This document shows positions 48,121 through 51,096 of a DNA stretch of 64,000 nt, piece by piece; within the stretch, counting starts at the first letter, position 1; every line of letters starts with the position of its first letter. The DNA comes from Methylocystis silviterrae. GTDB lineage: Bacteria; Pseudomonadota; Alphaproteobacteria; Rhizobiales; Beijerinckiaceae. The notes beneath the pieces were generated by a model. It did no database searches. It was not told where the DNA came from and worked only from the letters and a program-made list of their open reading frames with translations. The translations under genes and the position numbers were made by a program. The stretch covers positions 33,780 through 97,779 of the forward strand of contig NZ_JABVWW010000012.1 in the NCBI RefSeq assembly GCF_013350005.1, written 5' to 3'.

Positions 48121-48268
48121 CCGTTTCAGCTCACATTGCGCTATTCAGTCCAGCAAACTCCGAATAATCCTGCGTCGTCTCGTCGTTCACACGCAGGTAA
48201 TCTAGCTGGCACCCTGCAATTACATTTTTTACTTTTGAAGCTTAGCTGTTTCGTGTGCGTCGTCAACC

Positions 48269-48294
48269 GGCGATTATGCACTTGACTTAGCAAG
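48269..48294 (+). repeat. Left terminal inverted repeat of the IS1595-family element
   Basis: The left end begins GGCGATTATGCACTTGACTT and continues AGCAAG. It mirrors the right end at 50906-50931 with differences at the fourth and eighteenth bases. The target duplication abuts its outer edge. Confidence 0.93.
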
Positions 48295-48332
48295 CAGCAT
48301 AAGCGATAACTTGGTTATTGGAGTTAGCACCG

Positions 48333-49250
48333 ATGACCAATCTTTCCGCCCCTCGCTTCCATGACGAAGACGCCGCCCGCGAGCATATCGAAGCCTCGCG
48401 CTGGCCTGATGGCGTGACCTGCCCGCATTGCGGATCGGTCAAAGTCCGCCGCATGGAAGGCAAGACGCAGGCCGGCATGTTCCTGTGCAACGATTGCCGC
48501 GACAAGTTCACCTGCCGCACTGGCACGATCATGGAGCGCTCTCACGTCCCGTTGCATAAGTGGCTACTCGCCATCCATCTGATGGCATCAAGCAAGAAAG
48601 GCATTTCGGCGCATCAACTGATGCGCAACCTCGGACTCGGCTCCTACCGGACCGCGTGGTTTCTGGCGCATCGCATTCGCGAGGCCATGACCGATGATAG
48701 CCACAAGGCCACTGGCGGGCTTGGCGGCGCGAACAAGGTTGTCGAAGCCGACGAAAGCTATGTCGGGGGAAAGGCCAAGAACCGCGCCTTCAAAGAGCCT
48801 GCGCCAAAGAAAGCCGTTGTGACGCTCATCGAACGCGATGGCCGCGCCAAGTCTTTCCACGTCGCCAACGTGACCGCAAAGACCGTGCGCCCGATCATCG
48901 TGACCAACGCTAATCGCGCTAGCTCGCTGATGACCGACGAAAGCCTAATCTACCCCAAGATCGGCGAGGAATTTGCCAACCATCATACGGTCAATCACAG
49001 CGCCAATGAGTATGCACGTCTCGGCGGCTATGCCCATTGCAACACGGCGGAAAGCTTCTTTTCGACCCTTAAGCGCGGGATTACAGGGACCTATCATTCG
49101 GTCAGCGAGGCGCACCTGCATCGCTATCTCGCGGAATTTGACTTCCGCTATAATAATCGCACGGGCCTTGGTGTGGAAGACACGGAACGCGCTGCAAAAG
49201 CGCTGAAAGGCGCGGAAGGCAAACGGTTAATGTATAACCAGCCTCGTTGA
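48333..49250 (+). CDS. IS1595-family transposase
   Basis: This 305-residue transposase of the ISXO2-like type has an N-terminal zinc ribbon: VTCPHCGSVKVRRMEG, with the second pair in FLCNDCRDKFTCRTGT. A helix-turn-helix region follows (KWLLAIHLMASSKKGISAHQ), and then the DDE-type catalytic core. First Asp: VVEADESYVGGKAKN. Second: SLMTDESLIYPKIG. Third acidic region: NTAESFFSTLKRGITGTYHS. It moves the element by a DDE mechanism. ATG 48333 has GGAG upstream; a TTG five codons earlier is possible. It appears complete. Confidence 0.95.
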   Translation: MTNLSAPRFHDEDAAREHIEASRWPDGVTCPHCGSVKVRRMEGKTQAGMFLCNDCRDKFTCRTGTIMERSHVPLHKWLLAIHLMASSKKGISAHQLMRNLGLGSYRTAWFLAHRIREAMTDDSHKATGGLGGANKVVEADESYVGGKAKNRAFKEPAPKKAVVTLIERDGRAKSFHVANVTAKTVRPIIVTNANRASSLMTDESLIYPKIGEEFANHHTVNHSANEYARLGGYAHCNTAESFFSTLKRGITGTYHSVSEAHLHRYLAEFDFRYNNRTGLGVEDTERAAKALKGAEGKRLMYNQPR

Positions 49251-49322
49251 GCCGAAAACGATTAAGCAGAAAGCGACGCGGTTTAAGCGTTGGAGAAAAC
49301 GCAATAGAAGCAATAAAATAAG

Positions 49323-49763
49323 CTAAGCGTCTTCTTTCCCGCACAACTCCTTAAGAAGCTCGGCGGCCGTCTGCTCACTACTGCCGCCGTACACCTTCAC
49401 CATGAACCAAACAAAAAAACCAGCGGCTATTAGGACCTGAACCAATTCGAACGCATGGACTGAAAATTCTGACCGCTGAGCAGCGTTATAGACAGCCTCA
49501 ATCGCACTTGGCAAAGCTGCGATGAACCCAGTCAGTGCTGCATATGTGAACTCATCCCATTTTTTACGGGGCAGCGTCGCTAACATGGAAAGCTTTTCCT
49601 CGGTGAGCTGATGCAACCGTATTGGAGCTGGCTCGACATGCTCGATAGTCGGAGCACGTCCAAGTTGGGCGCTTGGCAAATTGGTCGATTGCGAAACTGT
49701 AAGTTGGCCGTGACCGCCGCCACCACTCTTAGACGGCACGCTACGCATCGCCAGCCTTACCAT
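49323..49763 (-). CDS. Cargo membrane protein, two predicted helices
   Basis: This 146-residue protein of unknown function is carried by the insertion element. The N-terminal half is polar with a Gly/His-rich patch (PSKSGGGGHGQLTVSQS). Two hydrophobic stretches follow (FTYAALTGFIAALPSAIEAV, about residues 72-91, and VLIAAGFFVWFMVKVYGG, about 110-128), then a charged tail (ELLKELCGKEDA). Its start overlaps the end of the previous cargo gene (49741-49763) by 23 bases, so translation is probably coupled. No family recognised. Confidence 0.55.
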   Translation of the reverse strand: MVRLAMRSVPSKSGGGGHGQLTVSQSTNLPSAQLGRAPTIEHVEPAPIRLHQLTEEKLSMLATLPRKKWDEFTYAALTGFIAALPSAIEAVYNAAQRSEFSVHAFELVQVLIAAGFFVWFMVKVYGGSSEQTAAELLKELCGKEDA

Positions 49764-50049
49764 TCATCGCAGATGATGATCTGGCCTTTTTGTCCTTCTC
49801 AATCGTGTCCAAAATCGATTTTGCAAGAGCTTCTGCATCCTCAGGGATCATTGAGACAGCCAATCGATATTTAGCGGTTTCAGGTGATCCAAACGCCTCC
49901 CCGAATGAGACTCTCACAATAGCCGGAGAAGCTGCGACAGTGAAAAAATTAGAAAAAGTGGACGGCGGGTCTTCCCAGTTGCGGGTTGTTCTCTTCTCTT
50001 CCATCATCCCCAATCCATGTTTTGTCGGCTGGAGAATGATAGATCGCAC
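49741..50049 (-). CDS. Cargo protein resembling DUF3467
   Basis: The frame reads from GTG 50049 (102 residues), but ATG codons at 50007 and 50004 give an 86- to 88-residue protein beginning MEEKRTTRNWEDPP, which is more likely. The body (FSNFFTVAASPAIVRVSFGE, then AVSMIPEDAEALAKSILDTI) resembles DUF3467: an F/Y-x-N start, an SPx-V/E-R strand, and a final helix with the A-x-A-L-A-K pattern. That family has no defined function. It follows the 53-residue basic gene closely and overlaps the next gene on the same strand. Confidence 0.55.
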   Translation of the reverse strand: MRSIILQPTKHGLGMMEEKRTTRNWEDPPSTFSNFFTVAASPAIVRVSFGEAFGSPETAKYRLAVSMIPEDAEALAKSILDTIEKDKKARSSSAMNGKAGDA

Positions 50050-50059
50050 GAGCCAAAAT

Positions 50060-50221
50060 TTAATCCAACTTATTCCTCTTGGAGCCCAACTTAGGACGGC
50101 CTCGCTTCTTAGGACTCGCGCTTGCGTCCTTCTTTGGCTTAGGCTGCGGCGGAGTGGAGAGAAGACGCTTTAGCGTCTCTTCTTCAATTCTTAGACAGTT
50201 ATCGTCTTCCACCTTACTCAT
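50060..50221 (-). CDS. Small cargo protein with AT-hook-like tail, 53 residues
   Basis: This short gene starts at ATG 50219-50221 (MSKVEDDNCLRIEEETLKRL), has a Pro/Lys-rich linker, and ends in KKRGRPKLGSKRNKLD. The RGRPK core (residues 40-44) matches an AT-hook, which binds the minor groove of AT-rich DNA. It could regulate the cargo or assist transposition. Both are inference. It is divergent from the HEPN-like gene with only 12 bases between starts, and it heads a three-gene minus-strand string. Confidence 0.55.
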   Translation of the reverse strand: MSKVEDDNCLRIEEETLKRLLSTPPQPKPKKDASASPKKRGRPKLGSKRNKLD

Positions 50222-50233
50222 TGGGTTACGCCC

Positions 50234-50737
50234 GTGGCTGATAATATTAGCGATCTCATAGAATCCTTTGAGAAATCACAGGGGCCGGTAACCCACTTCG
50301 CTTGGGTTGGCCGAATCGCTAGCGCATGGGCGCTATTTGAATTGGTTCTGGACGATAGATGCATCCGATTATCGCGCATGGACGCTCTCTATGGATTTTG
50401 CCTAACATCCCAAGTTATCGGCTCCGCCAGAAAGATAGATGCCTTTATTGCGATTTCAAAATTGCGCGGAGCATCCATGATGAATGGAGAATTCGAAAAG
50501 TTCGCCAAATCAACCGCCGCTCTATCAGAGAAGCGGAATAGGGTAATTCATGACCCTTGGTGCGAAGACGATGACGGCAGCGTGACTAAAACAGAGGTAT
50601 CTGCTAGGAGATTATTTAAATTTGAAATTTTAGAATCTGACATAGAACAATTACGTCGTCTTTTTTCTGACATACTAAGCCACATCCAATGGCTTGATAA
50701 AATATTCACCGAAGTTGATGCGATGCCAGAACCATAG
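50234..50737 (+). CDS. Cargo HEPN-like protein with R-x4-H motif
   Basis: This 167-residue, mainly helical protein starts at GTG 50234. A first helical pair (FAWVGRIASAWALFELVLDDR) and a central helix (SARKIDAFIAISKL) lead to the motif SEKRNRVIHDPW. There Arg101-x4-His106 matches the HEPN RNase signature, with Asn102 following the Arg as in many HEPN toxins. HEPN proteins are RNases in toxin-antitoxin, abortive infection and CRISPR systems. Activity here is inferred from the motif and helical pattern only. Its 3' end overlaps the convergent 66-residue gene by 32 bases. Confidence 0.55.
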   Translation: MADNISDLIESFEKSQGPVTHFAWVGRIASAWALFELVLDDRCIRLSRMDALYGFCLTSQVIGSARKIDAFIAISKLRGASMMNGEFEKFAKSTAALSEKRNRVIHDPWCEDDDGSVTKTEVSARRLFKFEILESDIEQLRRLFSDILSHIQWLDKIFTEVDAMPEP

Positions 50738-50906
50738 ATTTATATGCCGCCGCTAGCATCTCTTCTGCAACAGCGTCATCAGCGTCACGCAACCCTCTCC
50801 AACGAGAGGCATACTCTTCCATACCCGCCTTGATCATCTCTGGCGTGACTTCAATTTCACTTGGTTTTAGCGCCGGCCTGTCGACCGAATCAGTATCATC
50901 GCTCAT
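50706..50906 (-). CDS. Small cargo protein, 66 residues
   Basis: This acidic, helical small protein (SEIEVTPEMIKAGMEEYASR, later AVAEEMLAAAYKSMVLASHQ) is of a type frequently seen as a stand-alone unnamed protein in proteobacteria, with the VTPEMI.AG pattern. Its ATG (50904-50906) reaches the start of the right terminal inverted repeat, and its 3' end overlaps the convergent HEPN-like gene. The function is unknown. Confidence 0.5.
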   Translation of the reverse strand: MSDDTDSVDRPALKPSEIEVTPEMIKAGMEEYASRWRGLRDADDAVAEEMLAAAYKSMVLASHQLR

Positions 50907-50931
50907 TTGCTAACTCAAGTGCATAATTGCC
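50906..50931 (-). repeat. Right terminal inverted repeat of the IS1595-family element
   Basis: Read inward from 50931, this end begins GGCAATTATGCACTTGAGTT. It pairs with the left end at 48269-48294. The second copy of the CGTCAACC target duplication follows directly at 50932-50939. Confidence 0.93.
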
Positions 50932-51096
50932 CGTCAACCCGGCCAAATGCCTAAAGTATTTCTAACGTTTTAGCTTCGCCATTCTCGCTATAGCTTCACA
51001 ATTATTATTGTCATTGCCTATTTTTAATTGGAAAAGCTTACCCGCCGCCCAATCTGATGCTCAGTTCAGTTGGTCCTGGACTGAAAGGAACGCATC

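Follow-up and report, generated by a model that had tools for sequence, protein, structure and literature searches.

Introduction

The IS1595 family of transposons is known for an 8-bp target duplication, ends of about 25 bp and members that carry passenger genes (PMC8101967, PMC11891212, PMC5704250). The available portions of these reviews list ISNha5, tISCpe8 and MTnSag1 among the passenger-gene members (tIS), credit Siguier 2009 for these elements and name transcription regulators (ISNha5) and lincomycin resistance (tISCpe8) as cargo. Here we describe a transposon of this family from Methylocystis silviterrae, which is located in a stretch of 64,000 nucleotides (contig NZ_JABVWW010000012.1, positions 33,780 to 97,779) that we refer to as the window. 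The element, a unit of 2,663 bp at window positions 48269-50931, is similar to the known passenger-gene members in its transposase domains, its 8-bp duplication, its ends of about 25 bp and in carrying passengers. It differs from what the accessible text reports of them in that every element of its clade that we delimited contains cargo, which combines a small protein of either of two families, termed TPPKP and SERF, with an exchangeable gene encoding a predicted ribonuclease (RNase) or defence-type protein. We consider it reasonably probable that this complete IS1595 transposon, which belongs to a clade with cargo in all delimited members, functions as a chassis whose effector slot is open to exchange and is here occupied by a predicted HEPN ribonuclease.

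The nearest parallel is found in the exchangeable toxin-antitoxin (TA) modules of Tn3-family transposons, which, in the part of the source that was available (PMC7157771), are likewise transposon-borne and encode RNase-type toxins, one of them a HEPN protein. Latter modules reside next to a transposase of another family, with a res site (for which no search was made here) and with known antitoxins such as MNT for HEPN, and they are present in 39 of 190 Tn3-family elements compared to HEPN genes in 50 of 98 elements in our study, here without MNT. Passenger genes in IS1595 elements are already known from the sources at hand, and it is the pattern of chassis and slot across the clade, and not the gene set of the window itself, that looks undescribed. 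In the literature covered, from which subscription journals are mostly missing and whose texts were partly available, the pattern is not described for IS1595 elements with HEPN, DUF3800 or TA cargo.

Results

The element in the window is a complete IS1595-family transposon

The initial annotation had proposed a complete IS1595-family transposon with an intact transposase, ends of about 25 bases with two differences, a perfect 8-bp repeat on both sides and five cargo genes, and its description of the transposase and the borders proved to be accurate (Table 1). The imperfect terminal inverted repeats pair at 23 of 25 bases and are abutted by exact copies of the target duplication CGTCAACC, the 8-bp length being typical of the family. 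In our scoring of paired ends, they reach a value of 26 (18 of 20 end bases and 8 of 8 duplication bases), compared to a top score of 23 for decoys that combine left and right sides of different loci. The single transposase gene, which contains a DDE_Tnp_IS1595 domain and an IS1595 zinc ribbon, is intact and exceeds the curated cut-offs of three models (NF033547, E 2.5e-57; PF12762, E 3.8e-34; PF12760, E 3.2e-13). Residues D145, D207 and E245 (numbered in the 310-residue open reading frame, ORF), which we take to be the catalytic triad, are invariant in all 14 aligned sequences including the one of the window.

Table 1. Features of the transposon in the window.
Feature	Position	Strand	Basis and remarks
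Target duplication, left copy, CGTCAACC, 8 bp	48261..48268	none	sequence inspection
Left terminal inverted repeat, GGCGATTATGCACTTGACTTAGCAA	48269..48293	+	end comparison
IS1595-family transposase, zinc ribbon and DDE domain	48333..49250	+	domain searches; TTG start possible at 48318
146-residue protein, two hydrophobic segments as judged by eye; variable accessory slot	49323..49763	-	ORF list
DUF3467-like small protein, accessory slot	49741..50007	-	weak domain match; GTG start possible at 50049
TPPKP-family basic protein, 53 residues, GRP (AT-hook-like) core; chassis gene	50060..50221	-	hidden Markov model (HMM) family
HEPN-like predicted RNase, 167 residues, motif R101-N-R-V-I-H106; effector slot	50234..50737	+	HMM, structure model, VIA-align
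C66-family protein, EIEVTPEMIKAG, 66 residues	50706..50906	-	HMM family, geometry; convergent, 32-nt overlap with HEPN-like gene
Right terminal inverted repeat, 23/25 with left	50907..50931	-	end comparison
Target duplication, right copy, CGTCAACC	50932..50939	none	sequence inspection

The insertion is further manifested in the empty site expected in a related strain, which was found in a comparison of 39 genomes of the genus, the host's own included. The joined flanks match the genome G023 at 91% identity across all 569 query bases, with a single copy of the target (CGTCAAGC, one base different from the window), no gap at the junction and minor indels away from it. The match to a second genome (G001; query bases 246-569, 81% identity) also spans the junction, and in a third (G015) both flank pieces are present with about 200 bp between them. 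In the 64 contigs of the host assembly, a 23-base end pattern with up to three mismatches is found at these two places only, and since there is no further end-like site and the ends match one another, a composite element or a second insertion was ruled out. Neither the transposase search nor the end-pattern scan detected another full copy in the host genome, whose best other full-length transposase is 52% identical. A phage-borne transposase was also considered and set aside, as phage records contained just two relatives with 32-33% identity. A promoter scan identified five sites compared to 2.1 expected, none of them inside an end.

Delimited relatives all carry cargo and nearly all share a small companion gene

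For the analysis of relatives we employed genome sets with one genome per species. Among 150 genomes, 36 contain a transposase match with E ≤ 1e-70, the host genome being one of them. Loci (L numbers; G numbers denote genomes) comprise those from the matching genomes and the best 80 of at least 563 in a genome collection, and they were delimited by a search for paired ends and target duplications that also allowed for a right end immediately behind the transposase gene. From 48 transposase rows in the first set, 38 were kept and ten dropped due to a contig end or the lack of a convincing pair (L048, L050, L063, L069, L071, L072, L077, L078, L080, L083). Eight of the 38 score no higher than the decoy maximum of 23 (L054, L061, L064, L084, L085, L087, L089, L090) and were retained for their family-like ends, with L087 showing five of eight duplication bases as scored. 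The 80 loci of the second set yielded 61 elements (60 at a score of at least 24, plus L168 at 23), with nine of the 19 dropped loci containing less than 1.6 kb of contig beyond the gene. After removal of the duplicate L134, 98 non-redundant elements remained, including the one of the window, and 89 of these outscore the best decoy.

The elements have a median length of 2.4 kb (shortest 1,824 bp, longest 7.1 kb) and all 98 contain cargo, while a bare transposase was found in none, although the undelimited rows could conceal transposase-only elements with decayed ends. An attempt to obtain transposase-only controls from four more distant IS1595 transposases of the host genome did not provide the intended contrast, as two (L184, L186) also appear delimited with more than 1 kb and the other two are without good ends. 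Alphaproteobacteria is the label of 56 of the 60 elements that originate from the genome collection; among the remaining four labels, those of other phyla belong to metagenome bins and may reflect binning errors.

Of the cargo families built by iterated HMMs on 1,289 cargo ORFs, four are relevant to the window; the names TPPKP, SERF, C66 and HNLR were coined in this analysis. At the same threshold, reversed, shuffled or non-cargo ORFs gave no matches to these models. TPPKP is found in 83 of the 98 elements and its counterpart SERF in 14, with one protein (L065) belonging to both, so that either is present in 96 elements and neither in L060 and L137. The HEPN-like family is found in 50 elements and C66, located at the right end, in 37. 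The TPPKP, HEPN-like and C66 genes of the window recur in relatives in the same order, with the HEPN gene being divergent from TPPKP or SERF in 44 of 49 cases and convergent with C66 in 32 of 32.

Several observations concern individual elements and their ends. Within their first 25 bases, 76 of 98 left ends contain the sequence TTGAC compared to 29 of 98 right ends, for which reason the left end may also provide the -35 box for transcription of the transposase gene. The host genome harbours a second element of the clade (L017/L188 at C44; 1,934 bp, target duplication TATTTTGT), whose cargo consists of SERF and a 244-residue protein outside the assigned families; a fragment of a transposase lies at a distance of about 6 kb. 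In L053 (G104:C13, 5208-10000), two cargo-bearing IS1595 elements are arranged back to back with the target AAATAAAT in three copies, as if one element had inserted into the target duplication of the other.

Effectors differ between elements with closely related transposases

Nine pairs of elements contain transposases with an identity of 90% or more across more than 250 residues, and the slot region differs in all nine. As each species is represented by one genome, near-identical elements that also agree in their cargo are under-represented in this set. In four pairs the effectors belong to different families or to no assigned one: L162 with HNLR and L164 with HEPN (transposases 98% identical), L086 with DUF3800 and L088 with another gene (96%), L017 with another gene and L084 with DUF3800 (92%), and L054 and L061 (90%), both outside the three large effector families and compared by family only. 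In the other five, the effectors are of the same family with about 30% identity or less, or are hardly alignable. These pairs include L154-L159 (transposases 97%, HEPN 27%), L161-L166 (94%, HEPN 22% in a local alignment), L075-L076 (95%, HNLR 26%) and L151-L160 (98%, HNLR 28%), as well as the window and L047, where transposases of 96% identity accompany TPPKP proteins of 61%, C66 proteins of 50% and HEPN proteins that hardly align. When compared per 100 bp, the identity between L151 and L160 amounts to 85-100% over a stretch of about 1.6 kb that extends through TPPKP, and it falls to 42-68% at the effector gene.

On a quick transposase tree, the presence of HEPN requires 25 changes, at least 17 of which are forced by starred branches, compared to 32.8 if shuffled (a comparison made for HEPN only), and the presence of C66 requires 29, whereas the TPPKP/SERF type changes twice, with L060 and L137 scored as TPPKP. 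The small companion thus goes with the transposase while the effector does not. A replacement of the effector is favoured since some near-identical transposases sit beside different effector families. For the pairs of the same family, a very fast divergence of the effector could account for the difference instead of a replacement.

Sister elements carry defence-type genes

In the place of the effector, sister elements carry DUF3800, SocA-like, PIN, PemK or FRG genes. Both genes (A and B) of the anti-phage system PD-Lambda-5, with nearly the whole models covered, are found inside L121 and not in the window element; L146 contains an NsnA/PD-T4-2_A-like gene and L081 PDC-S15. The library scans used selected ORFs, namely 53 (50 of 59 with at least 120 residues and three smaller ones), 39 (33 of 34, plus six from L181-L183) and 38 (38 of 39). 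PADLOC models gave no match at E 0.01 to four window cargo proteins (all except TPPKP). HNLR constitutes the second large effector family with 12 elements (e.g. L076, L133, L160), often displaying a GDxxHNLRSALD-like motif. In six of them (L053 reverse copy, L074, L100, L147, L160, L162) the longer opposite-strand ORF was scanned, which places their HNLR proteins outside the library scans, and four members scanned singly (L107, L133, L151, L170) gave no PADLOC match.

As relatives with almost identical transposases contain quite different genes in this position, the element likely serves to transport toxin or phage-defence genes that are interchangeable. Alternatively, it could be an ordinary passenger-gene IS1595 element with captured neighbours, which share no common function and are of no benefit to the element. 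Such passengers have been described (PMC11891212, PMC5704250, in the available text), the membrane-type and DUF3467-like genes of the window resemble chance captures, and 28 of the 98 elements fall outside the three large effector families. This explanation is nevertheless unlikely, since it would not lead one to expect that one type of small companion recurs in 96 of the 98 elements, a HEPN gene in steady layout in 50 and, in one case, a full anti-phage pair.

The slot gene of the window encodes a predicted HEPN ribonuclease

The HEPN-like gene of the window, which begins with GTG and is divergent from the TPPKP gene, encodes a protein with the motif expected of HEPN domains, an Rx4-6H sequence with a polar residue following the arginine (RNRVIH, residues 101-106). 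In HEPN domains, this motif closes helix 3 of a helical fold (PMC3710099, in the part available). The structure model of the window protein (pLDDT, the predicted local distance difference test score, 83.9) agrees with this description, as the motif closes a helix comprising residues 81-106 ahead of a hairpin and a last helix, an arrangement seen in both models; by our reading, two shorter helices (51-59 and 64-77) take the place of HEPN helix 2. Family members are 11-22% identical to the window copy, and 45 of 50 contain R-[NDHR]-x3-5-H anywhere in the ORF, compared to a mean of 10.3 and a maximum of 20 in 200 rounds of shuffling and to 33 of 100 other cargo ORFs of at least 150 residues. With a stricter pattern, the numbers are 45 of 50 and 11 of 100. 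The window and the named loci provide 36 HEPN proteins, 32 of which are contained in an alignment (A3), with 14 others outside of it; as L096, L106, L116 and L164 were left out for lacking the motif, the invariance of its arginine and histidine is partly by choice and 45 of 50 is the fair count.

The match to the HEPN fold is weak. The window protein shows no significant sequence or Foldseek match to the HEPN toxins 8xdj, 7bxo, 8xeh and 7ae6 of the PDB and, unlike these known toxins, has no MNT neighbour, with no nucleotidyltransferase match among the window cargo ORFs. A PDB sequence search returned eight chains, most of them designed proteins, with no E value better than 0.024, a comparison of the second model with 321 aligned chains showed no HEPN chain among the 50 matches listed, and none of nine pattern matches in viral contigs was confirmed. 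The label HEPN-like of the initial annotation is based on the motif and the order of helices and has no Pfam hit behind it. That the proteins instead are all-helical sensors or scaffolds of another family appears improbable, in light of an R-to-H motif that is found far more often than after shuffling despite the low identity of the proteins and that occupies the HEPN-typical place in the order of helices.

The GC content of the gene (44%, compared to 63% in the window and 58% in the transposase gene) suggests that the slot gene was acquired from a foreign source. A HEPN relative without transposase (L016, 5537-6133; 35% identical to the window protein) adjoins a VapE/primase-like ORF (by eye) in DNA resembling a prophage or satellite.

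Small companion proteins and accessory genes

TPPKP proteins are short and basic, with a net charge above zero in 79 of 83 members and a PPKP-like core in 63. The window copy, which had been termed AT-hook-like, does contain a GRP core; as this core is shared by just 8 of 83 members, the window copy among them, AT-hook was rejected as firm label and TPPKP protein is the better name. As in real genes, TPPKP and C66 motifs vary most at third codon positions (50 and 12 motif-matching rows), with a small excess of 1.2-1.7 in four close C66 pairs. C66 is found in 32 of 50 HEPN elements and in 5 of 48 others (p 2.8e-8, with related elements not being independent). The 3' ends of the HEPN and C66 genes overlap by 32-173 nt in 31 of the 32 cases, the window showing the lower value, and due to these deep overlaps one ORF of the pair may be over-long.

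Due to its tie to HEPN elements, C66 is preferred over TPPKP as putative partner or antitoxin of HEPN. TPPKP, the type of which follows the transposase tree, more probably accompanies the transposon than acts as antitoxin for a single effector. An addiction transposon with a HEPN toxin and the divergent TPPKP as its specific antitoxin, which would resemble the TA modules in 39 of 190 Tn3-family transposons with their one HEPN-MNT case (PMC7157771, in part) and would fit the divergent neighbourhood in 44 of 49 elements, is very unlikely, as TPPKP or SERF is also found beside DUF3800, PIN, PD-Lambda-5 and protease-like genes and its type tracks the transposase with 2 changes instead of the effector with 25.

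An optional slot between transposase and TPPKP is in the window occupied by the membrane-type and DUF3467-like genes, neither of which was found in the other 97 elements. The former has two homologues beyond its own cluster among 5.8 billion proteins (37% and 56%), and for the latter the DUF3467 match (E 0.053) is below the curated cut-off and not significant, which led us to reject the domain as firm label. Five cargo ORFs are present as initially annotated, but the analysis does not support them as a self-contained unit, since among the 98 elements these two genes are confined to the window, whereas the other three have counterparts in the same order and the effector varies between elements that are otherwise nearly identical.

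Discussion

In the mechanism that we propose for the chassis with its exchangeable slot, the transposase would, as in other IS1595 elements, act on both ends and thereby move the entire 2.66 kb, and effectors would be replaced by recombination between related elements that share transposase and ends. The HEPN-like protein is predicted to cut RNA and might act as toxin or abortive-infection effector, whereas TPPKP may be a nucleic-acid-binding companion of the transposon, either as regulator or as helper of transposition. By conferring phage resistance or addiction, the slot gene could benefit the carrier cell and in this way maintain the transposon.

A more far-reaching view, which we put forward tentatively and do not expect to hold in full, regards the clade of alphaproteobacterial IS1595 transposons as a miniature defence island. 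The transposase, the ends, TPPKP or SERF and often C66 would define a fixed chassis, and fast-diverging HEPN RNases and anti-phage effectors would be swapped in the slot like cassettes, with TPPKP or SERF serving as universal adaptor that would allow any effector to be carried safely or moved.

If the reading of an exchangeable effector slot on a shared chassis is correct, little-noticed small transposons would spread and reshuffle small toxin or phage-defence modules among Alphaproteobacteria. The end pair of each element would show precisely where a candidate system begins and ends, which would make the search for defence genes direct. Natural pairs with transposases of 90-98% identity and different effectors would be suited to the study of cargo exchange, and the role of a nearly universal unnamed small protein in transposition or silencing would become open to testing.

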